DNA of 64,000 nt from Solibacteraceae bacterium (GTDB taxonomy: Bacteria > Acidobacteriota > Terriglobia > Bryobacterales > Bryobacteraceae), in the NCBI GenBank assembly GCA_021324015.1, contig JAJPJX010000050.1:1-64000 (forward strand). The letters run 5' to 3'. How positions within the stretch are numbered: position 1 is the first letter of the stretch; each line of letters begins with the position of its first letter. Below, piece after piece: positions 55,701-60,230 of the stretch. The notes below the pieces were generated by a model. The model was given only the letters and a program-made list of their open reading frames with translations, had not been told where the DNA came from and made no database searches. Both the position numbers and the translations under genes were made by a program.

Positions 55701-55961
55701 TTCGGATTTCCGCGGCTCGTGGATGGCGGCTCGGTGACGGCTCCCAACCTGGCCTTCTGGAGCCCCGCGGGCGAATGGGATGTGGAAAACCACGGCGTGC
55801 CGCCGGATATCGAGGTGGAGTACGACCCGGCCGCCGTGCGCGCGGGCCACGATCCGCAACTGGAGAAGGCCGTCGAAGTGCTGATGGAGAGTCTGAAGAA
55901 AAATCCGCTGCCCGTGAGCCGCCGGCCGGCGTACCCGAATTACCACCGCACGCTACCGTAG
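52716..55961 (+). CDS. Tricorn-type protease (S41 with beta-propeller and PDZ)
   Basis: A 1081-residue exported protease. After a signal peptide (FLLALLAVGMGHAQ) comes a beta-propeller region (about 20-660) with repeats such as YSPDGRRLAYL, FFSPDGAEIAF and WSPDGKTIAYF. A PDZ domain (about 760-860, NVAAGEYLLAVNGRDV) is followed by the S41 domain with the serine in NEFAGSGGDALPW and KRTWGGLVG. Tricorn is described as a self-compartmentalising peptidase acting downstream of the proteasome, but bacterial exported forms have unclear roles. The ATG at 52716 is preceded by TATGAT 6 bases upstream. Its stop overlaps the convergent membrane protein by 9 bases. Confidence 0.9.
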   Translation: MRFRIFLLALLAVGMGHAQGGRPMLLEKPTLNRTHIVFSYAGDLWSVPRQGGDAIRLTSGPGIETNPFFSPDGAEIAFQGEYDGNTDIFVMPASGGVPQRLTYHPGADIPTGWTPDGKHVVFYSRRSSYSRFDRLFTIPAAGGFPTEIPLPMGNQASYSPDGRRLAYLPLPPAFQAWKRYRGGRTTPIWIANLADSRVEAVPRENSNDFNPMWVGNKIYFLSDRNGPVSLFVFDMASRKVSQALRNDGLDLKSASAGPGALAYEQFGGIYLFDLSSGKSHRVDVRIAGDIPTVRPSFEKVAGQIFNARLSPTGARAVFEARGEIFTVPAQKGDARNLTNTSGVAERDPAWSPDGKTIAYFSDEGGEYRLHLKGQNDLVPAQKIELGNPPAFYYTPTWSPDSRKIAYTDNRLMLWYLDLGRKTPVRIDQDTYDTPFPDLRPAWSPDSKWLVYNKLLRNHYRAVFLYSLETGKSTQISDGMSDAEYAQFDRNGKYLYFTASTNLGLTTGWLDMSSLDRRVSRHVYVTVLSKAEPSPLAPESDEEKGPEAVKKDEKKEEKPIEPVTVRVDLENIGQRILALPIPARNYSGMAVGKTGILFLLEDVDDPAATPETAGRTLHKFDLKTRKTEKVLEGVREFEVSADGERMMYRQGQKWIVSAAGTPPKPGEGVLKTDTMEARIDPREEWRQIYHEVWRIERDFFYDPNHHGLDLIAAEKKYAPYLDGIASRAGLNYLFNEALGELTVGHLYVGGGAMPPVKSVPGGLLGADYAIENGRYRFARVYSGENWNPDLKAPLTQPGVNVAAGEYLLAVNGRDVRPPENLYQFFEATAGKSVVLRVGPDAGGAGSREVTVVPIENEFGLRNLAWIEENRRKVDRLSGGRLAYVYLPNTAEAGYNNFNRYYFAQIGKEGAVIDERFNGGGDVADYIVDYLNRPLLSHWTTRYGEDFTTPQNAIFGPKAMIVNEFAGSGGDALPWMFRRRRIGPIIGKRTWGGLVGIFGFPRLVDGGSVTAPNLAFWSPAGEWDVENHGVPPDIEVEYDPAAVRAGHDPQLEKAVEVLMESLKKNPLPVSRRPAYPNYHRTLP

Positions 55962-57929
55962 GACTTGCAGCAGATTGCTGTAGTCGTCCGTCCAGGGCCG
56001 CAGGCGCGGGCGGGGCGGGATGGCCACCGAGGCCCACCGCAGCCTCTCCAAAAACGGCTCGTTCGCGGAGACCAGCACCCAACTGGAGTCGTACACGTAG
56101 TGGCTCTGGTCGGCGAGATTGCGAATCAGCATCGCGTCCTTGCCGCCGTCCCGGGCCAGCGCCTGAACCACCGGCGCCAGATCCAGATAGCGGTTGGTGA
56201 TGTGCACGGCCAGGACTCCGTCCGGCTTCAGATGCCGGAAGTACAGGCGGAAAGCCTCGCGCGTGAGCAGGTGCATCGGGATGGCGTCACCGGTGAAAGC
56301 GTCGAGCGCCAGTACATCGAACCCCTGCGGCGGCTCGGCTTCGAGCGAGAGCCGCGCATCGCCGGGAACTACCTCCACCCGTGCCCGGCTCAGGCGCAGG
56401 AACGAGAACTCGCTCGCGGCCACCTGGATCACCAGGGGGTTCAGTTCGTAAAACCGGTACACATCGCCCGGCCGCCCGTACAGGGCCAGCGTGCCAGTGC
56501 CCAGCCCGATCACCCCTACCCGCTGCGGCATCCCTTGGCGGCGAAGCGCCAGCGCCGCTCCGGAATTCGGGCCGTAGTAAGCCGTCGGCTCGAGTGCGCG
56601 GCCCGCATCCTGGAACTCGATGCCGTGCTGGATGGCGCCGTTGCTCAGCACACGGATACGCGCGCCCGCCGCGCCGCTGTCGGCCACCTGCACCACCCCG
56701 TAGAAATTCCGCTGCTGGAAACGGTTGCCGTTGGCCCAGGCGCCGAATTCCAGGGCCGCCAGCGAGGCCACCCCGGTGGTCACGCCCATCCGGGCCAGGC
56801 TGCGCGGAGAGCACTGGTAGAGCAGCCCCATGGCCAGGATCACGCATCCCGCGATCGAAAGCGGCAGTTCCAGGTAGCTGTTGAACAGCGTGGGGGCCGC
56901 CACGGCGACAAAAGCGCCCCCGGCCGCGCCCCCCAGGGCTACCATCAGATAGAAGGAAGTCAGTTCGTTCGCAGCAGGCTTGCGGCGCGCCAGTTCGCCG
57001 TGGCAGAACACGCAGCAAGCTTCCAGGCCGGTGAGGAACAGTACGAGGCTCCACTTCAGCCCGGCGCTGGAGGCCGGCTGCAAAAATCCGGCGCACATGG
57101 CCACCCAGGCGGTCGGCAGAATCCAGCGAAACAGGCGCGGCGAATACCAGCCCTGGCGGTCGAAGCACAGGATGAAACTGAGCAGATAAAGACTGAGCGG
57201 CAATATCCACAGAAATGGCACGGGCGCCACGTTTTGGCTTAAGTGGTTGGCGACCGCCAGCCACAGCGCCGAAGGAAGCGCCGCCAATGTCACCCACAGC
57301 GCACGTTCTCCCAGCCGCACGGGGGACGCCCGAGGCGGCATGGCGGCATGGCTGGAGAGAGTGGCCGCCCCCGCCAGCAGCACAAAGACGGCGTAGCCCG
57401 CCGACCACCACCACAACTGGCGGCCGGTATTGAGGAACGGCTCGATGGCAGCAGGGTAGGCGAGCAGTGCCAGGAGTGAGCCCAAGTTCGATACAGCGAA
57501 CAGACGGTAGGGAAACGCCACCTTCGCTCCCGCGTACCAGGATTGCACCAGCGGGCCGGTAGTCGACAGCAAAAAATACGGCAGCCCCGCGCATACCGCC
57601 AATAGCATCAGAATCCCCGTAATCGGATTCGCCCCCGTCTCTGGCGGCCACGCGATCCGTGGGGAAACCGGCAGCAGGCACAGGCTGCCGGCCAGTAACA
57701 ACGCGTGCAGCGGCGCCTGAAGCCGGGCCGGGAGATATCGCCGGATTGCGTGCGCATAGCCGTAACCTGCCAGCAGGACCACCTGGAAGAACATCATGCA
57801 GGCAGTCCACACCCCCGCCGAACCGCCGAACCAGGGCAGCACGGCCTTGGCCAGGATGGGTTGCACCAAGAAAAGCAGCACTGCGCTCCAGAATATCGTC
57901 GCGCCGTAAAGGAAACGGATTGCGCACAT
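55953..57929 (-). CDS. Membrane-anchored spermidine synthase-like protein
   Basis: A 658-residue protein with about 10-12 N-terminal membrane helices (residues 1-390) and a C-terminal methyltransferase-like domain of the SpeE type (about 400-658: VGVIGLGTGTLALYG, YELNPLV, VPGDARLSL, LDAFTGDAIP). The aminopropyl-binding residues of true spermidine synthases are not clearly present, so it may act on another substrate. Such fused MFS/SpeE-like proteins are common in soil bacteria and unexplained. The ATG at 57929 is chosen because the TTG at 57971 adds only a Pro-rich tail. It converges with the tricorn gene and is divergent to a small RNA/DNA-binding pair. Confidence 0.8.
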   Translation of the reverse strand: MCAIRFLYGATIFWSAVLLFLVQPILAKAVLPWFGGSAGVWTACMMFFQVVLLAGYGYAHAIRRYLPARLQAPLHALLLAGSLCLLPVSPRIAWPPETGANPITGILMLLAVCAGLPYFLLSTTGPLVQSWYAGAKVAFPYRLFAVSNLGSLLALLAYPAAIEPFLNTGRQLWWWSAGYAVFVLLAGAATLSSHAAMPPRASPVRLGERALWVTLAALPSALWLAVANHLSQNVAPVPFLWILPLSLYLLSFILCFDRQGWYSPRLFRWILPTAWVAMCAGFLQPASSAGLKWSLVLFLTGLEACCVFCHGELARRKPAANELTSFYLMVALGGAAGGAFVAVAAPTLFNSYLELPLSIAGCVILAMGLLYQCSPRSLARMGVTTGVASLAALEFGAWANGNRFQQRNFYGVVQVADSGAAGARIRVLSNGAIQHGIEFQDAGRALEPTAYYGPNSGAALALRRQGMPQRVGVIGLGTGTLALYGRPGDVYRFYELNPLVIQVAASEFSFLRLSRARVEVVPGDARLSLEAEPPQGFDVLALDAFTGDAIPMHLLTREAFRLYFRHLKPDGVLAVHITNRYLDLAPVVQALARDGGKDAMLIRNLADQSHYVYDSSWVLVSANEPFLERLRWASVAIPPRPRLRPWTDDYSNLLQVLR

Positions 57930-57989
57930 GGCAACCCCCGTGGGGCAGGCGGGTGGCGCCGGCCTCGACAAGGTATAGAAAACCTGCTA

Positions 57990-58017
57990 TTGTAACTATA
58001 GATCATCGTGCTATTGT
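57990..58017 (+). promoter_or_regulatory. Promoter candidate for the Tudor-like/CSP pair
   Basis: TTGTAA (57990-57995) and TATTGT (58012-58017) are 16 bases apart, about 78 bases before the small gene. The 8-mer GCTATTGT occurs twice in the same orientation (57986-57993 and 58010-58017), a 24-base step, so each copy includes part of one promoter element, a possible activator or repressor pair of sites. Confidence 0.45.
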
Positions 58018-58094
58018 TGTCCCTGTCGGCGAGCTCACAATCCTTCCCTCCGGCTCGCACGATTCTCGCTAAGAAGGAGTAAAACCCTATCACC

Positions 58095-58334
58095 ATGGCA
58101 TCCAACAACTATTCCCAGGGCGCCCAGGTTGAACATCAGAAGTTCGGCCTGGGAACGGTCATGTCCAGCAATGATGACCGTATTGTCATCAAGTTCGACG
58201 ATCACGGCGAAAAGAAATTTGTCACTCCCATGGTCATCGGGCAGTTAAAGAAGAGCGACCGGCAACCCCCGGTCGAAAAACGGGCCTCCCGCAGCCGCAA
58301 GGCCAAGGCGGCGCCGGCGCCCGCGGCGTCCTAG
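58095..58334 (+). CDS. Small UvrD/PcrA-tail-like (Tudor-type) protein
   Basis: A 79-residue protein. Residues 9-43 (GAQVEHQKFGLGTVMSSNDD, then RIVIKFDDHGEKKFV) match the Tudor-like fold found at the C-terminus of UvrD/PcrA helicases, which binds RNA polymerase in those proteins, and in CarD-like proteins. The C-terminal tail is very basic (KRASRSRKAKAAPAP). A stand-alone version suggests a nucleic-acid or polymerase-binding adaptor. AAGGAG lies 14 bases before the ATG. It is followed after 21 bases by an extended cold-shock protein. Confidence 0.78.
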   Translation: MASNNYSQGAQVEHQKFGLGTVMSSNDDRIVIKFDDHGEKKFVTPMVIGQLKKSDRQPPVEKRASRSRKAKAAPAPAAS

Positions 58335-58355
58335 CTTCCTCAGAGGAAACATCTC

Positions 58356-58769
58356 TTGAACGCCCGACAGAGACGTCTTTTCGAAGAAGCCCGCAAGAGG
58401 AATCCCAACCTCAAGTTGCCGGAGAGCCAGCCGGCGGGGGAACTGACAGACGAAGATCTGGCATTAATCAAGCAGGGAGTTGGCGACAAAACCAGCCGCC
58501 CCGCTCCTGCCGCAAATGCGGGGGGAAACTCGTCCGCATCCGATGCCTCCGGCGAGCAGGGGGGGTTCGTGGTGACCTATTTCGAAGCCAAAGGCTTCGG
58601 CTTCCTGCGCCCGGATGACGGCGGCCGCGACGTGTTCTTCCATGTCTCGCGGCTGAGTGAAGGCGAGCCCACCGAACTCAAGCCCGGCGCGCGCGTGCTG
58701 TACGAACTCGGTATGGACCGCACGGGTAAAATGGCCGCGCGCAGCCTGCGCCTGGCTCCGCCGGAATAG
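58356..58769 (+). CDS. Cold-shock-domain protein with long N-terminal extension
   Basis: A 137-residue protein whose C-terminal half (about 68-135) is a cold shock domain: GGFVVTYFEAKGFGFLRPDD with RNP1 KGFGFL, then RNP2 VFFHVSRL. The N-terminal 65 residues (MNARQRRLFEEARKRNPNLK and a Pro/Asp/Ser-rich linker) are not found in ordinary 66-70-residue CSPs. The start is TTG at 58356, with AGAGGA 8 bases upstream, which supports the extension. It is 21 bases after the Tudor-like gene and probably co-expressed. Confidence 0.85.
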   Translation: MNARQRRLFEEARKRNPNLKLPESQPAGELTDEDLALIKQGVGDKTSRPAPAANAGGNSSASDASGEQGGFVVTYFEAKGFGFLRPDDGGRDVFFHVSRLSEGEPTELKPGARVLYELGMDRTGKMAARSLRLAPPE

Positions 58770-58784
58770 GCCGCCACGCGGCCT
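58768..58784. terminator. Short GC-rich hairpin after the cold-shock gene
   Basis: AGGCCGC-CAC-GCGGCCT forms a perfect 7-base stem with a 3-base loop at the stop codon of the CSP gene (58768-58784). There is no T-run, so termination would be partial at best; it separates the CSP pair from the ffh operon. Confidence 0.4.
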
Positions 58785-58817
58785 GCACGACATGTGAGGC
58801 CGCTGTCCCGCGCCATG

Positions 58818-58823
58818 TATAAT
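58818..58823 (+). promoter_or_regulatory. TATAAT -10 of the ffh-rpsP-khpA-rimM-trmD-rplS-rnhB operon
   Basis: A perfect TATAAT preceded directly by TG lies 57 bases before the ffh ATG. The -35 region is not recognisable at 16-18 bases upstream. It is the only -10 match between the CSP gene and ffh. Confidence 0.45.
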
Positions 58824-58880
58824 AGAAGAATCGCTTACGAGTCCCTGGTCTGCCCGGAGTCCTAGGCGTTTCTGATCTCC

Positions 58881-60230
58881 ATGTTCGACAATCTATCGGA
58901 GAAATTACAGCGGGTTTTCAAGAATCTGCGCGGCGAAGGCCGGCTGACGGCGGAAAACATGGAAGCCGCCCTGCGGGAAATCCGCGTGGCGCTGCTCGAA
59001 GCAGACGTCAATTTCCGGGTCGTCAAGCAGCTCATTGAAAACATCAAGCAGAAGGCCATGGGCGAAGAAGTGCTCACGGCGCTCTCCCCCTCCCAGCAGG
59101 TGGTGAAGATTGTCAACGAAGAGCTGATCAAAATCCTGGGCAGCCACGAATCCCGGCTGCGCTTCGCCAACGATCCGCCCACCGTCATGCTGATTGTCGG
59201 CTTGCAGGGTTCCGGTAAGACCACCACCACCGCCAAGCTGGCCCGCTGGCTGTCGAGAAACGGCCACCGCCCGGAAATGGTTTCGGTGGACGTCTACCGC
59301 CCGGCGGCGCGCGAACAGTTGCGCGTACTGGCCCGCGACCTGAATCTGCCGGTTTACCCGGGCGCCGCCGAAGAGACCACGCCCGCCGACCTGGCGCGCT
59401 CCGCCCGCAAGGATGCGGCCACTTCCGGCCGCGATGTGCTGCTCGTGGACACCGCTGGCCGCCTGCATATCGACGACCAGTTGATGACCGAGTTGCAGGA
59501 GCTCAAAGAGCAGCTCTCCCCGGTGGAAATCCTGTTCGTGGCTGACGCCATGACCGGGCAAGACGCCGTCAAGTCCGCCGAAGAGTTCCACCGCCGCCTG
59601 GGGATTACCGGCGTGGTGCTAACCAAGATGGACGGCGATGCGCGCGGCGGCGCCGCTCTTTCCATCCGCCATGTAACCGGCCAGCCGCTCAAGTTCGTGG
59701 GCGTGGGCGAGAAGCCCGACGCGCTCGAACCCTTCCATCCGGACCGCGTCGCCTCCCGTATCCTGGGCATGGGGGACGTCCTTTCGTTCATCGAGAAAGC
59801 CGAAGAGCTGATCGACAAGAAAAAGGCTGTCGAAATGCAGCGGAAGCTCATCGAGAACGAGTTCACGCTCGAGGACTTCCGCGACCAGATCCGCCAGCTC
59901 AAGAAACTCGGACCGCTGGAGTCCGTGCTCTCCATGATGCCCAAGGTGGGCATGCTTAAGGATCTCAAGAACGTCAAGGTGGACGAGAAGGAGATCGTCC
60001 ACGTGGTGGCCATCATCGACTCCATGACTCCGCAGGAGCGCGCCAACCACATGATTATAAATGGCGCCCGCCGCCGGCGCATCGCCAAAGGCAGCGGCAC
60101 CAGCGTCCAGGAAGTCAACCAGTTGCTTAAGCAGTATGCGCAGGCGCGGAAGATGATGAAGAGCTTCTCCGGAGGCTTTCTGGGCAAGAAACTCGGCAAA
60201 ATGAAGCTGCCGATGAGCTTTGAAATGTAA
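58881..60230 (+). CDS. ffh: Signal recognition particle protein Ffh (SRP54)
   Basis: A 449-residue SRP54 homologue. The NG GTPase has GLQGSGKTTTTAKLA, DVYRPAAREQL, VDTAGRLHIDDQ and TKMDGDARGGAAL. The methionine-rich M domain (about 300-449) binds SRP RNA and signal sequences and ends KKLGKMKLPMSFEM. Together with FtsY, encoded about 12 kb away, it targets membrane proteins. It heads the rpsP-rnhB cluster, starting 14 bases before the rpsP ATG. Confidence 0.96.
   Translation: MFDNLSEKLQRVFKNLRGEGRLTAENMEAALREIRVALLEADVNFRVVKQLIENIKQKAMGEEVLTALSPSQQVVKIVNEELIKILGSHESRLRFANDPPTVMLIVGLQGSGKTTTTAKLARWLSRNGHRPEMVSVDVYRPAAREQLRVLARDLNLPVYPGAAEETTPADLARSARKDAATSGRDVLLVDTAGRLHIDDQLMTELQELKEQLSPVEILFVADAMTGQDAVKSAEEFHRRLGITGVVLTKMDGDARGGAALSIRHVTGQPLKFVGVGEKPDALEPFHPDRVASRILGMGDVLSFIEKAEELIDKKKAVEMQRKLIENEFTLEDFRDQIRQLKKLGPLESVLSMMPKVGMLKDLKNVKVDEKEIVHVVAIIDSMTPQERANHMIINGARRRRIAKGSGTSVQEVNQLLKQYAQARKMMKSFSGGFLGKKLGKMKLPMSFEM

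Follow-up and report, generated by a model that had tools for sequence, protein, structure and literature searches.

A gene for a stand-alone Tudor-like protein, which resembles the tail of the helicases UvrD and PcrA, is located directly upstream of a gene for a cold-shock protein (CSP) with an extra N-terminus in a Solibacteraceae genome of 8.2 Mb, and the pairing of the two genes was conserved in the family. The window analyzed was a stretch of 64,000 nucleotides of this genome (contig JAJPJX010000050.1). When 200 genomes of the family were searched, the extended CSP was found in 57, and in 56 of the 57 the Tudor gene lay just upstream on the same strand. A lack of co-occurrence and an absence of the extension from close homologues were both tested for, and neither occurred. 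It is very likely that the two genes are functionally coupled.

Conservation and distribution of the gene pair

The Tudor-like ORF (58095-58334, plus strand) encodes 79 aa and the CSP ORF (58356-58769, same strand) 137 aa, with a gap of 21 nt between them, a spacing which suggests that the two genes are co-transcribed. The initial annotation had described a stand-alone UvrD-tail-like gene beside an N-extended CSP, and this description proved right. Both are real ORFs and each is preceded by a Shine-Dalgarno-like sequence, AAGGAG (58074-58079, plus strand) at 15 nt from the ATG of the Tudor gene and AGAGGA (58342-58347, plus strand) at 8 nt from the TTG of the CSP gene. The latter distance was 6-10 nt in 37 of the 38 CSP-bearing loci. 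For the Tudor gene, the sequence was unusually far from the ATG in 33 of these 38 loci (13-18 nt); among the CSP-less loci, it was at most 12 nt away in 26 of the 41 that had one, and none was found in 11.

Loci of relatives (L033-L141) were searched by tblastn. In one group of them the Tudor gene was followed closely by the CSP, and in another no CSP was present nearby. Nearly all relatives of the Tudor gene came from metagenome records labelled Acidobacteriota (Bryobacterales, Terriglobia, Solibacter and similar). The exceptions were L094, labelled Acidimicrobiia, and seven distant loci (L135-L141), which were mostly long frames ending in a Tudor domain with no CSP nearby. These seven are probably PcrA/UvrD and not stand-alone proteins, and were excluded from the counts.

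In the 200 family genomes, the extension profile (A2) matched 61, 57 of them at E < 1e-26; the four others, at E 0.004-0.008 and covering at most profile residues 3-26, were dropped as spurious. The Tudor profile (A3) matched 190, of which 184 were strong (best E <=2e-14) and six, at 3.6e-6 to 9e-5, are probably helicase tails only. Adjacency was established by reading 29 of the 30 loci L142-L171 and, for 25 of the other 27 genomes, by comparing coordinates by eye; for the remaining two (G376 and G501) the stretches were read, the Tudor gene of G501 itself being cut by the contig end. In the one exception to the pairing (G419), the extension begins 101 nt from the end of its contig. The 57 genomes represent 24 genera as judged by genus codes, and within these genera only two genomes (G458 and G477) had no extension; both also had no Tudor match. 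About 128 of the 184 genomes with a strong Tudor match lacked the extended CSP, indicating that the Tudor protein also has an independent role. The extension gave one strong match in 297 genomes of the phylum, that of the genome under study, the three outside the family at E about 0.015 being taken as noise; in 399 genomes of the class it gave 26 matches, all in the same family.

When 90 Tudor proteins were placed in a tree, those with a CSP neighbour (38) formed one side of a branch with an SH-aLRT value of 89, which was not starred and comes from few alignment columns. CSP presence required one change on this tree, compared with a mean of about 29 under shuffling, and the linkage within the family may thus rest on a single ancestral event. 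Some positions distinguish the two groups, such as R29, present in 38 of 38 proteins with a CSP and in 2 of 52 without; such group-specific positions could reflect shared ancestry. The Tudor-only loci of the family were also scanned with an ordinary-CSP profile built from 9 sequences, and no CSP was found in them (93 loci scanned in all, including duplicates and the CSP-bearing L046).

Independent evidence came from outside the family. There, a stand-alone Tudor gene followed an ordinary CSP gene on the same strand once in G352 (L269), twice in G355 (L270 and L271) and once in G287 (L217), with the two domains spaced by 114-132 nt. In G201 (L216, 2710-3705), the Tudor domain and an ordinary CSP domain were on opposite strands and separated by about 430 nt. 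A gene judged by eye to be RRM-like was located between them; this RRM-type gene facing the Tudor gene would be a second kind of RNA-binding neighbour. Altogether, 5 of the 32 non-family Tudor loci examined had a CSP neighbour and 27 had none in the examined stretch. The 32 comprise 27 loci from the stronger matches of one search, two with a CSP and one (L201) probably a helicase tail, together with all five non-family places at E < 1e-8 of another, three with a CSP and one (G332) belonging to the same order as the family. Genomes held 0-5 cold-shock domain (CSD) genes, and we estimate that chance would place a CSP and a Tudor gene within 1 kb of each other at roughly one locus in a thousand. 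Because gene order and CSP type differ from those of the family pair, the CSP-Tudor association probably arose more than once. Among the papers listed from the open PubMed Central literature, none was seen to describe such a pair, which says little about other literature.

The Tudor-like protein and the extended cold-shock protein

The Tudor-like protein was characterized by Pfam, an AlphaFold2 model, Foldseek and VIA-align. Its match to Pfam PcrA_UvrD_tudor (PF21196; E 1.4e-4, 22.1 bits) was below the gathering cut-off of 23.9, and the protein is therefore termed UvrD-tail-like and not filed as a member. The model showed an SH3-like barrel at about residues 6-54, with block pLDDT of 86-92 over residues 11-50, followed by a basic C-terminal tail, rich in K and R and floppy in the model, which is probably disordered. 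UvrD/PcrA tails occupied ranks 1-7 in Foldseek and ranks 1-4 in VIA-align (7egt Z 7.1, 7egs 6.9, 5dma 6.4 and 9dqs 6.3, values below 8 that can be common among small barrels), and the top matches had an rmsd of 1.1-1.8 over 47-51 residues. According to the structure titles, 7egs is a complex with a lobe of E. coli polymerase and 7egt a complex with UvrB. A sequence profile of the Tudor protein independently picked 7egt (E 2.7e-5). With these tails (7egs, 7egt, 5dma, 9dqs and 6yi2) the protein has in common the fold, at Z 5.6-7.1 and 27-30% identity over 47-52 residues, an H-x-K-F-G-x-G-T motif and a G-x-K loop. In contrast to the helicase tails, it is free-standing and adds the basic C-terminal tail.

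Other Tudor-like and barrel domains were also compared. Sequence likeness to DUF3553 (PF12073), the domain at the C-terminus of DinX, was weak (E 0.0012, 18.8 bits, cut-off 20.3). The Tudor-like tail of mycobacterial DinX has been proposed to bind RNA polymerase (PMC6511836). In DinX this part is the tail of a DNA polymerase, whereas here it is a separate protein beside a CSP. The RNA-polymerase-interaction domains of CarD and Mfd are likewise SH3-like barrels, which bind the polymerase beta subunit; the CarD structures matched the model at Z 5.1-5.8, with an rmsd of 3.7-5.6 and 12-14% identity, and by their titles two of them were solved with beta1 or B1-B2 domains. The Mfd site on beta differs from the PcrA site (PMC8318588).

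HMMER aligned K40-K41 of the Tudor protein with the K-W of UvrD GIKW, and at each of the two positions 89 of 90 Tudor proteins had K. Binding of the PcrA tail to polymerase is lost in the mutant K727A (PMC8318588), and we infer that K727 is the lysine corresponding to Tudor K40 and to that of UvrD GIK. The aromatic cage of UvrD consists of H678, F681, W709 and Y714 (PMC7585439). The Tudor protein keeps H14 and F17 (F or Y), and the W709 and Y714 positions are occupied by K41 and M46, the alignment having been extended gap-free by hand to M46. Because two of the four cage positions are non-aromatic, the reading of methyl marks by this protein appears unlikely.

The PcrA tail binds a helicase-interaction motif, [VIL]DxxTGE[VIL][VILT], which in RpoB is widespread (PMC8318588). 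RpoB of this organism contains VDMSTGEVL, an exact match, and no such motif was found in its UvrB. The RpoB motif does not discriminate, since it is widespread and the PcrA/UvrD tail of the cell itself presumably binds there; the window genome encodes a helicase tail with GLKKLV as well as the stand-alone Tudor protein with GEKKFV. As a DNA pattern across the genome, the motif gave 13 matches compared with 1 for a reversed control. Its use as a partner list was given up: RpoB was the only expected partner, and the other matches were viewed by frame only, so that a match to the motif does not by itself prove a partner. The chances that the Tudor protein binds polymerase are put at about even.

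The CSP matched the Pfam cold-shock domain (PF00313) at residues 70-129 (E 9.9e-13, 48.2 bits, cut-off 27). The domain lies at 58563-58742 (plus strand) and contains KGFGF and FFH, which we take to be RNP1 and RNP2; both cores were invariant in 37 CSP sequences. The extra N-terminus reported for this CSP was confirmed at about 66 residues (residues 1-66, 58356-58553, plus strand; alignments A1 and A2) and was present in all 37 complete sequences aligned. Its conserved part spans about residues 1-48 (NARQKRLFEEARKRNP...DLALIKQGVGDK in relatives) and is followed by a variable linker; 19 of the first 50 positions, start included, were invariant in the 37 sequences. In the model, helices were placed at 3-15 and 32-39 with moderate to low confidence, and the linker was disordered. 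A profile search of the PDB with the extension returned one match at E 0.5. The reading of the extension as a known domain was rejected.

The protein shares the cold-shock domain and its RNP1 and RNP2 cores with CspA-family proteins (PF00313), but differs from their single domain of about 70 residues in being N-extended to 137 aa, in its TTG start and in its linkage to a Tudor gene. In the window genome it scored 49 bits as a CSD, compared with 102 and 105 for two other CSD genes; the extended CSP is therefore an addition to these. In G321 (L038), a 99% complete relative, the N-extended CSP was the only CSD match found, which makes this genome a natural test case of whether such a protein can replace ordinary CSPs. 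The specificity of CSPs is determined by loop and N-terminal residues (PMC11648934).

Expression signals and flanking genes

A consensus scan predicted a sigma-70-like promoter at 57965-57993 (plus strand), with a -35 element TCGACA (57965-57970), a 17-nt spacer and an extended -10 element TG-n-TATTGT (57988-57993). It contains the first copy of GCTATTGT (57986-57993). This 8-mer starts at 57986 and 58010 and at no other place in the window, and at least two copies arose in 9 of 100 shuffles of the window. The doubled 8-mer had been put forward as a pair of repeated promoter half-sites. When the 150 nt ahead of each Tudor start were compared, the window was the only one of 38 CSP-bearing loci to contain GCTATTGT, and none of the 52 CSP-less loci had it, so the doubling was absent from the 89 other loci compared and is not upheld as a meaningful pair. 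An operator or tandem promoter made of the doubled 8-mer was likewise rejected as a conserved feature, the doubling being confined to the window among the 90 loci. These promoter counts were based on 38 loci with a CSP (window included) and 52 without, 13 having been dropped beforehand (11 duplicates of others and two startless loci, L110 and L134).

What recurs across loci is an extended -10 pattern, TCGACA-N17/18-TGnTAnnnT. Upstream of the Tudor gene, NCGACA-N(13-16)-TGnTA was found in 22 of 38 CSP-bearing and 19 of 52 CSP-less loci. A looser form, TGnTAnnnT, was there in 35 of the 38 and in 51 of the 52; both patterns had been picked after the sequences had been viewed. Since the 8-mer is restricted to the window while TGnTAnnnT recurs, its first copy, which sits where this pattern recurs, is best read as a putative extended -10 element. 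The scan of the window also permits a second promoter, TTGTAA-N16-TATTGT, which may be species-specific. For TCGACA-type promoters with TG, the distance from the -10 end to the ATG was 96-106 nt in nearly all CSP loci (78 nt in L093), compared with 14-43 nt in CSP-less loci.

The second copy of GCTATTGT (58010-58017) falls within a 5' leader element (58005-58022, plus strand) that aligns with a partly conserved ATTGTGGTAC-like stretch of relatives. Most aligned relatives differ at this copy and share a partly conserved sequence of approximately ATTGTGGTACTTCTGCCC (23 leaders, window included). In the 150 nt ahead of the Tudor gene, TTGTGKTA was found at 13 of the 38 CSP loci, the window not among them, and at none of the 52 CSP-less loci. 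Lying shortly after the predicted transcription start, the ATTGTGGTACTTCTGCCC-like element could be a candidate binding site for the CSP itself. RNAalifold gave no consensus structure for the 23 aligned leaders, a weak test because column shuffles gave none either, and an Rfam search of 57900-58950 returned no relevant leader family, the only match being a sub-threshold Na+ riboswitch on the minus strand (E 1.4). Neither search gave support for a structured RNA leader or an autoregulatory fold.

The CSP gene began with TTG at all 38 loci, the window among them, and the same held for each of the 32 matches in another set of 32 loci that shares some members with the first. Directly after this TTG, AACGC was invariant in every locus checked. 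In the same loci, the start of ffh was ATG in 19 of 20, one alignment not beginning at residue 1, and that of rpsP was ATG in 13 of 13; the Tudor start was ATG in 38 of 38, a count that is not independent, as the script picked ATG. In L069 and L070, an in-frame stop sits one or zero codons ahead of the TTG, which therefore cannot be an internal codon there. That this weak start is retained suggests that low or regulated translation of the CSP is under selection.

The next gene downstream is ffh, encoding the signal recognition particle protein (58881-60230, plus strand; NCBIfam TIGR00959, 597.8 bits), after which rpsP, named by eye, begins at about 60244. The location of the pair ahead of ffh-rpsP, as first annotated, thus holds in the window. 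As a general context it does not hold, because ffh was within 1 kb downstream in 19 of 37 CSP loci and not in the other 18 (in L082 it was 3 kb further on), one further locus being cut; ffh-rpsP was rejected as a general functional context on this count. In 14 of the 18 loci without ffh, the downstream genes, named by eye, vary, and include glyoxalase-like (L064), NRAMP-like (L039 and L046), L21-like (L083) and TonB-like (L086 and L087) genes. As judged from these gene arrangements, it is the Tudor-CSP pair, and not its surroundings, that is conserved. Upstream, a divergent gene (55953-57971, minus strand) resembles a fused MFS/spermidine synthase (NF037959, 64.3 bits), and has a minus-strand promoter-like site (58023-57995) that adjoins the Tudor promoter; no match to this gene was found in the stretches examined around any relative. 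At CSP-less loci among L091-L133, with genes named by eye, the Tudor gene was near a divergent greA-like gene in 9 of 32 and just before a purQ-like gene in 8 of 32.

Possible functions of the Tudor-CSP pair

The initial annotation had proposed that the pair could couple RNA polymerase to ribosome biogenesis or RNA chaperoning. A link to polymerase is a plausible prediction from the UvrD/PcrA-tail fold, the conserved loop lysine and the RpoB motif; the case for a special link to ribosome biogenesis by way of ffh-rpsP is weak. CspA, CspE and CspC have been described as antiterminators, postulated to work through RNA binding, and CSPs promote rRNA transcription in the cold (PMC12562117). We propose that the Tudor protein, as a free-standing relative of the UvrD/PcrA tail, would dock like those tails on the helicase-interaction motif, a D-x-x-T-G-E hairpin of the polymerase beta subunit. 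The CSP would be its partner, with a cold-shock domain that may bind and melt nascent RNA, resulting in anti-pausing, antitermination or R-loop prevention. The conserved N-terminal helices of the CSP could tether it to the Tudor protein or to polymerase. The complete scheme, in which the Tudor protein docks on RpoB and the CSP is brought via its extension to act on nascent RNA, is a possibility that we place somewhat below an even chance. Points against it are the many family genomes whose Tudor gene has no extended CSP, the 27 of 32 non-family Tudor loci in which no CSP was seen in the examined stretch, the single change needed on the Tudor tree, the moderate to low confidence of the extension model, the wide occurrence of the RpoB motif and the Pfam score below its cut-off.

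The pair might also be coupled away from polymerase. It would then be an RNA chaperone associated with ribosomes or mRNA; the Tudor protein, with its basic tail, would help by binding nucleic acid, and the CSP extension would dock on a ribosome or on a nuclease. The UvrD tail also binds DNA, with constants of micromolar order (PMC7585439), and the Tudor tail has many K and R residues. About half of the loci precede ffh-rpsP and one precedes the L21-like gene, and in Pseudomonas PA2504, a protein that contains a Tudor-like domain, cross-linking to S4 and EF-Tu is observed (PMC8466066). However, the adjacent translation genes are not constant, and the nearest fold matches are polymerase- and UvrB-binding tails. 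We consider this arrangement unlikely. In B. subtilis, the free tail of PcrA hinders full-length PcrA from interacting with polymerase (PMC8318588), which makes natural competition a serious alternative: the Tudor protein would occupy the RpoB motif and keep PcrA/UvrD off polymerase, the CSP would independently protect nascent RNA, and the two genes would share only regulation. The presence of both a helicase tail and a stand-alone Tudor protein in the window genome, and of the Tudor gene without the extended CSP in most sampled family genomes, would suit such competition. It leaves unexplained why the extended CSP was beside the Tudor gene in all 56 of the 57 genomes in which this could be judged, and why the CSP-Tudor neighbourhood is repeated in other families, and we regard it as distinctly unlikely.

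The remaining explanation is that two small growth-related genes are operon neighbours, commonly expressed from one promoter with no direct interaction. It agrees with the promoter-like region common to both genes and with a linkage that one ancestral event could explain within the family, but not with the recurrence outside the family in reversed gene order, the persistence of the pairing while the flanks change, or the restriction of the extension to Tudor-linked CSPs. We consider it quite improbable. The proposal of a polymerase-docked pair is preferred here. In its most specific form, the free-standing Tudor protein would take over the helicase-docking motif and bring a dedicated CSP to nascent RNA by means of the two N-terminal helices peculiar to this lineage, which we offer as a tentative and rather doubtful reading. 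The parts are of already known kinds, a UvrD-tail-like Tudor protein and a cold-shock protein, in a new variant.

In the usual picture, cold-shock proteins are diffusible antiterminators and UvrD/PcrA tails are helicase anchors. The conserved Tudor-CSP pair would be an instance of a separate docking module that brings an RNA chaperone to polymerase. The pair also offers a conserved N-terminal segment with no known relative in the PDB or, outside the family, in the sampled phylum and class, and a rare start codon that has been kept in all relatives checked. It would make RNA-chaperone recruitment directly testable with two small proteins and one RpoB point mutation. If the proposal is true, the pair would represent a polymerase-tethered RNA chaperone, made from the tail of a repair helicase and an otherwise diffusible cold-shock protein.
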